Assembly (NCBI GenBank): GCA_945860385.1
Contig: CAMAQD010000014.1
Location: forward strand, 1-64,000
From: Flavobacterium psychrophilum
Lineage (GTDB): Bacteria > Bacteroidota > Bacteroidia > Flavobacteriales > Flavobacteriaceae
Direction: 5' to 3'
DNA: 64,000 nucleotides
Below, one piece after another: positions 25,950-36,730 of this stretch (positions are counted from its first letter, which is position 1; each line of letters opens with the position of its first letter). Below the pieces are notes generated by a model, which ran no database searches, was not told the origin of the DNA, and worked only from the letters and a program-made list of their open reading frames with translations. The position numbers and the translations under genes are program-made.

Positions 25950-28109
25950 TTAATGAAGCAATATCTCCAAAATACTGATTGCTGCTTCACTAATTTTGGT
26001 TCCAGGGCCAAACACAGCAACCGCTCCAGCATCGAATAAAAATTGGTAATCCTGCGCAGGAATTACTCCACCTACGATGACCATTATGTCTTCACGACCG
26101 TGTTTTTTGAGTTCGGCTATCACTTGAGGAACAAGCGTTTTGTGTCCCGCTGCTAGTGAAGAAACTCCAAGAATATGCACATCATTTTCCACGGCTTGTT
26201 TAGCGGCTTCGGCCGGGGTTTGAAACAAGGGACCTATATCGACATCAAAACCCAAATCGGCATAGCCTGTGGCGACTACTTTAGCACCTCGATCGTGTCC
26301 ATCTTGTCCCATTTTTGCAATCATAATTCTAGGGCGACGGCCTTCTTTCAGGGCAAATTCATCGGCTAGTTGTTTGGCTTTCTCAAAGCTTTTGTCGTCT
26401 TTAATTTCTTTGCTATACACGCCACTGAAGGATTTAATTTGTGCTTTGTATCTTCCGAAAACTGTTTCCAGGGCATCGCTGATTTCGCCTAAAGTGGCGC
26501 GGTTTCGCGCTGCCTCGATGGCGATTTCCAGTAGATTGCCTTCTCCGGTTTGAGCACAAAGGGTTAGTTTTTTGAGTGAAAGTTGGACTTTATCGGTATC
26601 CCGAGTCGCTTTAATTTTTTCTAATTGCTCGATTTGCTGTTTGCGCACCATCTGGTTGTCGACGTCGAGGATTTGCAAGGGATCTTCTTTTTCTAATCGG
26701 TATTTGTTGACTCCTACAATAATATCCTGACTGCTGTCAATTCGTGCTTGTTTTCGTGCTGCAGCTTCTTCGATGCGCAGTTTCGGAATACCCGATTCAA
26801 TGGCTTTGGTCATTCCGCCGAGTTCTTCGACTTCTTCAATGAGTTTCCAGGCGTTTTGGGCTATTTCATTGGTAAGGCTTTCGACATAAAAACTGCCTGC
26901 CCAAGGATCGACTGTTTTGCAGATTTTGGTTTCTTCCTGTAAATAGATTTGGGTATTTCTTGCAATTCTGGCCGAGAAATCCGTTGGCAAAGCGATGGCT
27001 TCGTCGAGTGCGTTGGTGTGCAAAGATTGAGTTCCGCCAAAAGCAGCTGCGGCTGCTTCGATAGTGGTTCGTGCCACATTATTGAAAGGATCCTGCATCG
27101 TCAAACTCCAACCTGAGGTTTGGCAATGGGTTCTCAAGGCTAAGGATTTCTCGTCTTTGGGGTTGAATTGTTTCACCAGTTTAGCCCAAATCATTCGTCC
27201 GGCGCGCATTTTGGCAATTTCCATAAAATGGTTCATTCCGATGGCCCAGAAAAAAGATAGGCGAGGGGCGAAGTCGTCGATTTTCATTCCGGTAGCCAGC
27301 CCAGTTCTGATGTATTCCAACCCGTCGGCGAGGGTGTACGCCAACTCGATGTCGGCAGTGGCACCTGCTTCCTGCATATGGTAACCAGAAATGGAAATAG
27401 AATTGAATTTTGGCATTTTCTTGCTGGTGAATTCAAAGATATCGGCAATAATTTTCATCGAAGGAGTGGGCGGATAGATGTAGGTATTTCGCACCATAAA
27501 CTCCTTCAGAATGTCATTTTGTATGGTTCCTGAAAGTTGTTCCGGCTGAATCCCCTGTTCTTCGGCAGCGACAATATAGAATGCCATAATAGGCAAAACC
27601 GCTCCGTTCATCGTCATAGAAACTGACATTTCGCCTAAGGGAATCTGATCGAATAATACTTTCATATCTTCGACCGAATCGATGGCTACTCCCGCTTTTC
27701 CAACATCTCCTACCACGCGTTCGTGATCGGAATCGTAACCGCGATGTGTGGGTAAATCGAAGGCTATCGAAAGTCCTTTTTGTCCAGCGGCTAAGTTTCG
27801 GCGGTAAAAAGCATTGCTTTCTTCTGCGGTAGAAAATCCTGCATATTGGCGAATCGTCCAAGGACGGCGCACGTACATTGTGGTATATGGACCTCGTAAA
27901 TTGGGTGCAAAGCCCGCCCCAAAGTCCAGATGTTCGAGGTTTTCGATGTCTTTTTCGGAATAGGTGGGTTTTAGGGCAATGCCTTCGGCGGTGAGGAATG
28001 CTTCAGGTTGCAGTCCCGAAAGCTTTCGGGAGCAGTTTTCAGGTTGCAGATTACTGCTAACAGACTCACTACTGTTTTCTAATTTTATATGTTGGAGGTT
28101 TTTTCTCAT
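25950..28109 (-). CDS. scpA: Methylmalonyl-CoA mutase, large (catalytic) subunit
   Basis: A 719-residue adenosylcobalamin-dependent mutase interconverting methylmalonyl-CoA and succinyl-CoA. The substrate-binding barrel is recognised by [30 protein letters not shown] and [17 protein letters not shown] in residues 80-150. The B12-binding domain has the DxHxxG motif with His605 ([18 protein letters not shown]). The length fits the family. Residues about 20-38 ([18 protein letters not shown]) form an insertion made of a heptamer repeat with a palindrome (see 28001-28050). Small subunit at 29221; a TA pair and another gene lie between. Also called mutB. Confidence 0.92.
28001..28050. repeat. Repeat with palindrome inserted in frame in the mutase gene
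   Basis: Two direct TTCAGGTTGCAG units (about 28002-28013 and 28038-28049) flank the perfect palindrome TCCCGAAAGCTTTCGGGA at 28014-28031. The heptamer wording is that of the array at 23857-24165. The element lies inside the mutase open reading frame and is read through as [18 protein letters not shown] without shifting frame. Confidence 0.8.
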
Positions 28110-36058: not shown

Positions 36059-36088
36059 TTGCTTAGGTGAAAAATAGTTGTACATTTG
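36059..36088 (+). promoter_or_regulatory. Bacteroidota-type promoter of the tRNA-Pro / GIY-YIG locus
   Basis: TTG at 36059-36061 and TACATTTG at 36081-36088 with a 19-base spacer match the Bacteroidota consensus well. The predicted start is just before the tRNA-Pro 5' fragment at 36099. No comparable box lies directly before the intact tRNA at 36423. Confidence 0.75.
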
Positions 36089-36098
36089 CAGCCGATTA

Positions 36099-36163
36099 CG
36101 GGGTGTAGCGTAGCTCGGTTATCTTGTCCCGCAAGGCGGGAAGACCGTAAAGTTTGAATCCTT
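36099..36163 (+). pseudogene. tRNA-Pro 5' fragment with anticodon arm replaced by a hairpin
   Basis: The first 25 bases (36099-36123) equal the 5' end of the intact tRNA-Pro at 36423-36447, covering the acceptor strand and D arm. The anticodon arm is replaced by the hairpin TCCCGCAAGGCGGGA (36127-36141), and the T arm is only weakly kept (GTTTGAATCC). It cannot fold as a tRNA. It follows a good promoter. Confidence 0.8.
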
Positions 36164-36176
36164 ATATTTAATAATT

Positions 36177-36419
36177 ATGTACATAGTATATATTTTATTT
36201 AGTAAAAGTTCTTTAAAATACTATACAGGTCAAACTGATAATCTTGAAAATAGATTGTATAGGCATAATTCAGGATTGAGTTTGTCAACTAAATCAGGTA
36301 AACCTTGGGAATTGATTTCCCAATTTAAATTTATAACACGTTCAGAAGCAGTGCTTTTAGAACAAAAAATAAAAAAAAGAGGAGCTAAAAGATATCTTGA
36401 AGATATCGGGTTCTTTTAA
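36177..36419 (+). CDS. GIY-YIG domain endonuclease, small
   Basis: An 80-residue protein consisting of a GIY-YIG nuclease domain: MYIVYIL near the N-terminus (the GIY part), YTGQT at residues 16-20 (the YIG part), the catalytic Arg in LENRLYRHN (R26, H30) and a Glu in AVLLEQKIKK near 61. Such single-domain UPF0213-type genes are scattered through Bacteroidota genomes, often with repeats and tRNAs. Here it sits between a tRNA-Pro 5' fragment and the intact tRNA-Pro, behind their common promoter. A role in DNA repair or as a mobile element's nuclease are both possible. Confidence 0.85.
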   Translation: MYIVYILFSKSSLKYYTGQTDNLENRLYRHNSGLSLSTKSGKPWELISQFKFITRSEAVLLEQKIKKRGAKRYLEDIGFF

Positions 36420-36422
36420 ATT

Positions 36423-36497
36423 CGGGGTGTAGCGTAGCTCGGTTATCGCGCCTGCTTTGGGAGCAGGAGGCCGCAGGTTCGAATCCTGCCACCCCGA
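36423..36497 (+). tRNA. tRNA-Pro (anticodon TGG)
   Basis: A cloverleaf can be folded: acceptor CGGGGTG/CACCCCG, anticodon stem CCTGC/GCAGG with loop TTTGGGA (anticodon TGG), and T arm GCAGG TTCGAAT CCTGC. A98-G-type discriminator is A at 36497 and the next bases, CCA, match the 3' end. No promoter lies just upstream, so it is likely transcribed with the GIY-YIG gene from 36059. Confidence 0.95.
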
Positions 36498-36500
36498 CCA

Positions 36501-36530
36501 AAAGCTGAACAGTACGGTTCGGCTTTTTTT
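36501..36530 (+). terminator. Rho-independent terminator after tRNA-Pro
   Basis: The hairpin AAAGCTGAAC / GTTCGGCTTT (36501-36510 with 36517-36526, one G-U pair) is followed by a T run to 36530, right behind the tRNA. Confidence 0.8.
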
Positions 36531-36540
36531 ATTTGATATT

Positions 36541-36598
36541 GTTTATCGCGTCCCGCAAGGCTGGAAGGCCGCAGGTTCGAATCCTGCCACCCCGACCC
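36541..36598 (+). pseudogene. tRNA-Pro 3' fragment, second tandem copy
   Basis: From the last bases of the D arm (GTTTATCGCG at 36541, compare GGTTATCGCG at 36441) this copy keeps the variable region, an intact T arm and the 3' acceptor strand, but its anticodon arm is the degenerate hairpin TCCCGCAAGGCTGGA (36551-36565) and it has no 5' acceptor strand. A copied terminator follows. The repeat period is 100 bases. Confidence 0.8.
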
Positions 36599-36638: not shown

Positions 36639-36676
36639 GTTTATTGCGTCCCGCAAGGCGGGAAGGCCGCAGGTTC
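36639..36676 (+). pseudogene. tRNA-Pro fragment, third tandem copy (truncated)
   Basis: GTTTATTGCG at 36639 starts a third copy with the intact hairpin TCCCGCAAGGCGGGA (36649-36663) and GGCCGCAGGTTC, after which the match to tRNA-Pro stops inside the T arm. Confidence 0.75.
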
Positions 36677-36730
36677 TTCCAATTGCTATCTGGACTCCCA
36701 ACCCGACAGGGTAGTTGTCAATTGCTATCA

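Follow-up and report, generated by a model that had tools for sequence, protein, structure and literature searches.

Which process places a nuclease gene between a promoter and the tRNA gene that it serves, and how the host retains a functional tRNA thereafter, are the questions raised by a locus of Flavobacterium psychrophilum, contained in a stretch of 64,000 nucleotides (contig CAMAQD010000014.1, positions 1 to 64,000; hereafter the window). As determined by tRNA search, the window harbours a single tRNA gene, tRNA-Pro(TGG). An earlier note on this DNA had described a GIY-YIG nuclease gene in front of it and had proposed a minimal mobile cassette targeting tRNA-Pro.

Architecture of the tRNA-Pro locus and its nuclease

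All features of the segment 36059-36770 locate on the forward strand. The putative tRNA-Pro promoter (36059..36098), delimited by its sequence, by box search and by comparison with relative L002, contains at 36081-36088 the -7-like box TACATTTG, a motif hit of the TAnnTTTG type which we take to be the Bacteroidota -7 consensus. In L002, the counterpart of this stretch directly abuts the tRNA (sequence comparison), whereas in the window it is separated from the tRNA by the insertion. The promoter is followed by a left tRNA-Pro remnant (36099..36163, end approximate) which consists of the 5' half, the perfectly paired hairpin TCCCGCAAGGCGGGA in anticodon-arm position (36127..36141) and a decayed T-arm remnant, with the acceptor 3' strand missing; the same layout recurs in L081, L111, L112 and L113. 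Located between this remnant and the intact tRNA-Pro(TGG) gene (36423..36500, tRNA search) is the gene for a single-domain GIY-YIG nuclease of 80 amino acids (36177..36419, ORF list and PF01541). The tRNA terminator, a hairpin plus T run (36500..36531), is copied behind the first of two tRNA-Pro 3' remnants, both of which follow the intact tRNA. Remnant 1 (36543..36597) has a hairpin with one mismatch (36551-36565) in place of the anticodon arm, and remnant 2 (36641..36707; cf. L001 and L020) a hairpin at 36649-36663 as well as a second, decayed palindrome (36677-36694) standing in for part of the T loop. Remnant and terminator together form one 98-bp repeat unit. The segment ends with a right flank common to the window and the empty site L002 (36695..36770, 88 % identity).

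The repeat search recovered the 25-nt identical duplicate of the tRNA-Pro 5' end reported by the earlier note (36099-36123 and 36423-36447, spacing 324), and the promoter-like element ahead of the left copy and the GIY-YIG gene between the copies were likewise found as described there. The left copy, in contrast, does not end with these 25 bases and continues into the hairpin and the T-arm remnant. A chance repeat was ruled out by the repeat search, the hairpin count and shuffling: the 23-nt repeat core has two matches in the window (at most 3 mismatches), which was reached in 0 of 100 shuffles, and TCCCGCAAGGCGGGA occurs three times (at most 2 mismatches) versus 0.03 expected. The note had also postulated that the tRNA depends on the displaced promoter. 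A search for a separate promoter just upstream of 36423, with TAnnTTTG as the only motif, revealed no such box in 36200-36422, which supports this dependence as probable.

The nuclease matches PF01541 with 56.5 bits (cut-off 22.6; E 3.5e-15) across residues 1-71 of 80. Eight columns are invariant in 22 family members, among them Y5, Y16, G18, R26, H30 and E62; the two tyrosines, the glycine, the arginine and the glutamate are presumably the GIY-YIG active-site residues, and the presence of residues of this type assigns the predicted protein to the GIY-YIG superfamily. Its AlphaFold2 model (pLDDT 94) comprises one confident domain, and no separate DNA-binding domain is apparent from the model or from the PF01541 coverage. 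Enzymes of the SegB type possess a separate DNA-binding part besides the catalytic domain, and SegB itself is, as we assume, larger than the window protein, in which such a part is lacking (80 aa, one domain); the window gene does share with them the location outside an intron and next to a tRNA. The best matches in a PDB sequence and profile search were UPF0213 proteins of similar length (1zg2, BH0048, E 1.2e-18; 1ywl, EF2693), and Foldseek also ranked 1zg2 first (E 8.4e-4, rmsd 7.3; the sole match below E 0.001), followed by SLX1 and, more weakly, I-TevI and UvrC. By sequence and modelled fold, the similarity to UPF0213 covers the whole domain. SLX1 is the next-best match in fold and profile, and its entry titles name branched DNA, a form open to palindromes; the matched chains are, however, larger (about 180-320 residues), SLX1 has the partner Slx4, and the similarity is restricted to the GIY-YIG core. 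The dN/dS ratios among six close GIY-YIG genes including that of the window range from 0.05 to 0.24, i.e., purifying selection acts on the window gene and its close relatives.

Two familiar types of insertion were considered for the locus and rejected. Against a group I intron homing gene, the adjoining tRNA is intact and uninterrupted, and TIGR01453 scores 19.9 bits versus a cut-off of 56.05. Islands integrating into tRNA genes carry an integrase and restore the tRNA that they enter while displacing a fragment of it. Insertion at a tRNA, the restored tRNA and the displaced fragment are common to such islands and the window, but the window unit measures ~0.3 kb and lacks an integrase (the GIY-YIG gene is the only ORF of at least 50 aa between left remnant and intact tRNA), its remnant and terminator appear to be local copies, and a hairpin replaces a tRNA arm.

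Empty sites and distribution of the family

The protein encoded next to the locus, which we take to be a DUF2339 protein, was used as query for a genome scan; 80 loci were fetched, 21 of which contain tRNA-Pro(TGG) near the DUF2339 gene. None of these 21 loci from related genomes has a GIY-YIG gene within 600 bp, confirming the empty sites that the earlier note had suggested looking for in relatives. Seven of the 21 display gene-less hairpin remnants, one of them imperfect; an eighth regex match, in L030, is a terminator hairpin and not a remnant. The 21 syntenic loci exclude L013; in its genome (G012), a gene related to that of the window adjoins a tRNA-Pro of a broken contig (L082). The flanks shared with L002 (left from 35987, right to 36770) delimit a stretch of 784 bases in the window but of only 251, all contiguous, in L002, equivalent to about 533 extra bp (BLAST), and 78 of 78 bases (window 36421-36498) are identical to the empty-site stretch. 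The close relative G002, empty at this tRNA-Pro (L002), contains an 89 %-identical gene at another tRNA-Pro located between tRNA-Ser and tRNA-Arg, again in the layout of the window. Between the window and G002, dS amounts to 0.48 for the GIY-YIG ORF versus 0.96 for DUF2339, which is a weak comparison with an ORF of only 80 codons.

The window layout was found in four other genomes, in two of them (L081, L113) at the different tRNA-Pro between tRNA-Ser and tRNA-Arg. Six members (L082, L111, L112, L116, L118, L120) adjoin a gene taken to code for thioredoxin reductase (trxB), and since a putative trxB also flanks the DUF2339-linked tRNA-Pro in L007 and L009, the window's own tRNA-Pro site may be occupied in other genomes, too. 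The gene is patchily present and not unique to the window. The orientation of tRNA-Pro with respect to DUF2339 differs between L001 and L002, which come from different species, indicating that the segment was inverted or relocated.

A match to the window protein was detected in 21 of 26 related genomes, and 91 of 121 genus genomes contain some homologue. The contexts read were those of the best-scoring matches (30 loci, then 26 new loci, then 60 regions), yielding 144 unique ORFs in 112 loci which represent the top matches to the window protein and not a random sample. Before removal of overlaps there were 154 ORFs; taking out L102, L109, L118 and one L100 fragment left the 144, among which some adjacent pieces of disrupted genes (e.g., L159, L188) are still counted. 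For 104 of the 144 ORFs, an intact tRNA of the same orientation is located within 500 bp: tRNA-Pro for 25, Ala for 21, Val for 18, Phe for 11, Asn, Asp and Met for 8 each, Arg for 3 and Leu for 2. Seven further ORFs, mostly array copies, have an intact tRNA at 500-1500 bp, 18 are in loci without intact tRNA (most of those looked at show tRNA remnants or contig ends), and 15 constitute a class with no tRNA nearby. The latter class is under-sampled due to a survey query of tRNA-Pro type; with a query of its own, matches were obtained in 55 of 121 genus genomes at E 1e-12. Linkage to tRNA thus does not extend to all of the family. In the usual arrangement, the tRNA and its terminator precede the ORF, and a remnant and a terminator copy follow it, with the ORF downstream of its tRNA in 96 of the 104 linked members; the order of the window (ORF before tRNA) is represented by the other eight, i.e., five Pro, two Arg and one Val case, the latter (L157) being one of two neighbouring ORFs.

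Branches of the enzyme tree largely follow tRNA identity, and most lineages keep to one tRNA. Across 126 proteins, the tree requires 22 label changes compared to 82.9 on average after shuffling (none of 200 shuffles was as low), a contrast inflated by near-copies, and the tRNA-labelled rows alone require 8 changes for 9 labels. Phe and Leu each occupy one side of a branch, Pro falls into two groups, and Arg performs no better than shuffled. The tree is unrooted and built from 73 columns, with 64 of 122 inner branches open and 20 of 122 starred. The clade associated with Met is present in 17 and the Arg/Leu clade in 7 of the 121 genus genomes.

Beyond the genus, a draw from the order gave family-profile matches in 68 of 148 genomes. 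Of the 28 loci inspected, 13 are located within 600 bp of a tRNA, three (L211, L217, L225) have remnants only, and 12 are tRNA-free. A draw from the phylum gave matches in 131 of 198 genomes with profile A1, which covers both the tRNA-linked and the tRNA-free classes; here, a tRNA was seen within 600 bp in 18 of the 22 new loci that were inspected, and 14 of these 18 have a remnant with a score of at least 14 (two at exactly 14; one at 13.6 was not counted). In both draws, the loci read were top-scoring and not randomly chosen. Tandem arrays of the unit were also encountered, comprising six copies in G032 (one with stops) and five copies at exactly 350 bp in G046.

The cassette proposed by the earlier note accordingly holds as far as mobility, linkage to tRNA-Pro and displacement of the promoter are concerned, but it is not a one-off and instead belongs to a large family. 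Neither of the two outcomes that the note had named as refuting was encountered, with TAnnTTTG as the one promoter motif looked for. The layout of the window does recur in four other genomes, but most tRNA-linked members lie downstream of their tRNA. What the note had missed are the unit of the element, the remnants marked by palindromes and the extent of the family across genus and phylum.

tRNA remnants and palindromes

A tRNA remnant on the far side of the ORF was detected for 84 of the 104 tRNA-linked ORFs, compared to 10 of 104 in the reverse-complement control (local score of at least 14); the remaining 20 are without remnant at this score. Perfect hairpins of at least 6 pairs are present in 79 of 84 remnants versus 51 of 278 random pieces from the same loci. 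As 55 of 84 intact tRNAs also pass this test through their own arms, the hairpin count alone says little, and weight is placed on sequence and place of the palindromes. Read by eye, the palindrome replaces the anticodon arm in Pro, Ala, Val and Asp remnants and is situated on the 3' side of the anticodon arm in Met, in the variable region in Asn, in the T loop in Phe and Leu, and in the D region in Arg. Typical palindromes are TTCCGATTTTTCATCGGAA for Val (7/16; stem TTCCGAT..ATCGGAA), TCCCGATGCATCGGGA for Ala (8/15), TCCGCCGCGGCGGA for Met (5/7; stem TCCGCC..GGCGGA), CCCCGATAGCTATCGGGG for Asn (4/6; stem CCCCGA..TCGGGG), TCCCGAAGCCTCGGGA for Phe (4/7; stem TCCCGAAGC..TCGGGA) and TCTCGTCTAGGGACGAGA for Asp (3/4; stem TCTCGTC..GACGAGA), while Arg and Leu have one palindrome in common, CCTGCCTGCCGGCAGGCAGG. 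Clade specificity is only partial, since the TCCCG core is common to the palindromes of Pro, Ala and Phe.

The hairpins of the Pro remnants are mostly paired and have the stems TCCCGC/GCGGGA, TCACGC/GCGTGA, TCCCGAT/ATCGGGA and TCCCGT/ACGGGA. This survey started from 42 distinct strings, about eleven of which were set aside by eye as chance matches located outside remnants, leaving ~31. The stems suggest that pairing is kept while sequence changes, with few independent changes. The remnant is a nearly whole tRNA, starting at nt 5 or 6 and reaching nt 76 but with its arm replaced, at several Val loci as well as at L121 and L123 of the Pro type. At the tRNA-Arg loci L126, L145 and L129, a 20-bp palindrome resides in the D region of the remnant without any deletion, in L126 on both sides of the ORF. 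An RNA-level role of the remnants as decoy tRNA is disfavoured, as most Pro remnants lack one half and could not form an acceptor stem.

The origin of the remnants was addressed via their terminators in 21 hand-picked Pro loci, one of which gave no pair. In 16 of 20, the terminator behind the remnant best matches that of its own locus, and 4 of 20 match better elsewhere; the duplication is thus local or locally homogenised, and an element importing a foreign tRNA 3' end is disfavoured. These local terminator copies, together with the gene-less remnants at 7 of 21 sites, are what would be expected of an ordinary tandem duplication of the tRNA that decays beside an unrelated nuclease gene. Such a coincidence is, however, hard to reconcile with 104 of 144 ORFs located at tRNAs, with the clustering of enzyme clades by tRNA and with clade-typical palindromes, so that simple local duplication, already disfavoured by the family survey, is considered highly improbable.

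The palindromes themselves might be the substrate. The GIY-YIG protein would then act on the palindrome (as hairpin or cruciform) and not on the tRNA body, the mobile unit would be palindrome plus gene, and the tRNA remnants would be places where palindromes landed and stayed. This would represent a nuclease analogue of the REP/RAYT system, in which the RAYT is a Y1-type transposase linked to REP palindromes. Both would feature palindromes that are linked to a nuclease gene and at the same time dispersed in the genome; the window enzyme differs in being a GIY-YIG and not a Y1 protein and in its residence at tRNA loci. The idea is regarded as possible though rather unlikely. It is favoured by the palindromes typical of tRNA clades, including the one shared by Arg and Leu, by the ranking of SLX1, a branched-DNA nuclease, as nearest solved fold after UPF0213, and by the genomic distribution of the palindromes; the TCCCG core shared by Pro, Ala and Phe weakens it.

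The Arg/Leu palindrome is present in 12 of 121 genomes, including 7 of 7 with the Arg/Leu enzyme clade, and was found away from the gene in 5 of 7 clade genomes versus 5 of 114 others (p 2.5e-5, uncorrected for phylogeny). Clade membership was called at E 1e-18 or better, and two matches between 4.5e-18 and 5e-18 were treated separately: G095 was kept (it belongs to the Leu clade of the palindrome-independent tree) and G040 was left out. Association of the Met palindrome is weaker: among the matches listed, and with five genomes judged from counts, it is dispersed in 9 or 10 of 17 clade genomes versus 19 of 104 (p 0.001-0.004, uncorrected for phylogeny). Such associations may reflect shared ancestry of the genomes; moreover, some genomes with dispersed palindromes lack the gene (5 of 12 in the case of Arg/Leu, 19 of 36 in that of Met), and about ten copies of the Arg/Leu palindrome that were read have no evident common target.

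For the tRNA-free class, inverted matches on both sides were observed in 11 of 15 ORFs (mismatched controls 5/75), these being mostly copies of dispersed repeats, and the scattered repeat of one subclade is present in 9 of its 10 genomes versus 18 of 111 others (27/121 overall). The inverted-match test is non-specific, however, with 59 of 107 ORFs positive in the tRNA class (mismatched 31/535) and 16 of 23 in the rest (6/115), at least partly due to copied terminators. Inverted copies of dispersed repeats of the GTCAGGCTGAGCnnnGTCGAAG / CTTCGACnnnGCTCAGCCTGAC type frame the tRNA-free genes L097, L098, L107, L110, L168, L189, L215, L216, L218-L221, L228 and L231, and L099 and L101 have other repeats of this kind. 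Extended to the whole family, the proposal would be that Bacteroidota GIY-YIG nucleases drive an unnamed class of mobile palindromes, each enzyme clade moving, amplifying and scattering its cognate palindrome, with one branch anchored at tRNAs via a palindrome-marked copy that preserves the host tRNA and another framed by inverted dispersed repeats; in this general form, too, it is put forward tentatively and thought doubtful.

Genome-wide TCCC..GGGA hairpins (40 of 873 TCCC sites; 0-8 for other tetramers) were dropped as candidate dispersed mobile palindromes, and the figure is not relied on, because tRNA remnants and intrinsic terminators account for many of them. At 28014-28031, the window contains a single perfect palindrome, TCCCGAAAGCTTTCGGGA, that is away from any tRNA and resembles Phe-clade palindromes.

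Mode of spread and relation to known systems

The loci read typically contain a GIY-YIG gene of ~75-80 codons beside an intact tRNA, mostly with a truncated, palindrome-bearing tRNA copy on the other side, and the sites of the element also occur empty or as gene-less hairpin remnants. The probable explanation is a chromosomal, tRNA-specific, homing-like GIY-YIG element that spreads via DNA breakage, a step that we infer, and recombination. With comparable, reasonably good confidence, the window gene is assigned to a family of minimal, apparently selfish elements which inhabit tRNA loci across the Bacteroidota. The nuclease would break the cognate tRNA locus, cutting either the tRNA body or the palindrome in the second copy. 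Recombination by the host via the shared tRNA and terminator sequences would then copy the unit of ORF and truncated tRNA into empty loci of the same tRNA; the same recombination could amplify the unit in tandem or delete it, leaving palindromic scars. Since the duplicated tRNA part would keep the tRNA functional, insertion should cost the host little. In the layout of the window, the element would provide a new 5' half, and the tRNA would be co-transcribed from the old promoter and presumably freed from the joint transcript by RNase P.

The main difficulty concerns self-protection: the intact tRNA of the window, an occupied site, does not differ from its empty-site counterpart, so that an enzyme cutting in the tRNA body would be expected to attack its own locus as well. 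If the enzyme acted on the palindrome instead, this difficulty would lessen and the system would resemble REP/RAYT. Homing proper is conjectural. Members with the usual layout seem to retain the sequence of the empty allele, in pieces, within the occupied one, so that a short site confined to the empty allele is not apparent, and homing into a recipient via such a site is hard to reconcile with this layout.

The closest worked-out example is SegB of phages T4 and T6, a tRNA-linked GIY-YIG homing endonuclease which cuts inside tRNA genes and drives tandem amplification of the tRNA locus by recombination (PMC13096335). The cut motif RAWTSGAAC is given for 23 of 83 sites and no isotype preference is reported (PMC13096335); in our reading, the motif would be the reverse complement of the tRNA T-loop sequence GTTCGAATC. 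The favoured homing-like element would, by analogy, resemble SegB in mechanism, i.e., a break followed by recombination via tRNA and terminator sequence. Both have a GIY-YIG domain, are free-standing outside an intron, lie beside tRNA genes and are associated with tandem amplification. SegB is phage-borne, in contrast to the element on the bacterial chromosome of the window, and the window family differs further in clades mostly keeping to one tRNA and in a truncated tRNA copy with clade-typical palindrome; cleavage by its members is deduced.

The SegB precedent in phage T6, the tandem arrays and the purifying selection on the gene could also speak for a domesticated device for tRNA dosage, with the nuclease amplifying the tRNA locus and the host gaining against tRNA-cutting toxins or phage effectors. 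The arrays read, however, amplify the gene and the broken tRNA copy and not the intact tRNA, and the individual types are patchy (Met clade 17/121, Arg/Leu clade 7/121), though 91 of 121 genomes have some homologue; a dosage function is therefore judged improbable.

No description of chromosomal tRNA-linked GIY-YIG elements was found in titles and abstract openings of mostly non-subscription papers and few preprints; a phylogenomics survey of GIY-YIG proteins dates from 2006 (PMC1564403). Should the reading as homing-like element be correct, chromosomal selfish elements, many of them tuned to one tRNA, would form a large and overlooked group among the small GIY-YIG genes of Bacteroidota. They would provide a natural series for studying how a one-domain nuclease acquires target specificity, how an element can reside at an essential gene without killing its host, and from where the palindromic repeats of Bacteroidota genomes originate.

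Several elements (L082, L091, L096, L129, L143, L165) are close to contig ends; repeated tRNA pieces may break assemblies, and copy numbers in drafts are possibly too low. GIY-YIG matches were also located within long reading frames of 687 codons (G040:C9:3408-3623), 701 codons (G080:C14:21474-21662) and 435 codons (G170:C1:322598-322816), which possibly represent fusions or insertions into larger genes.
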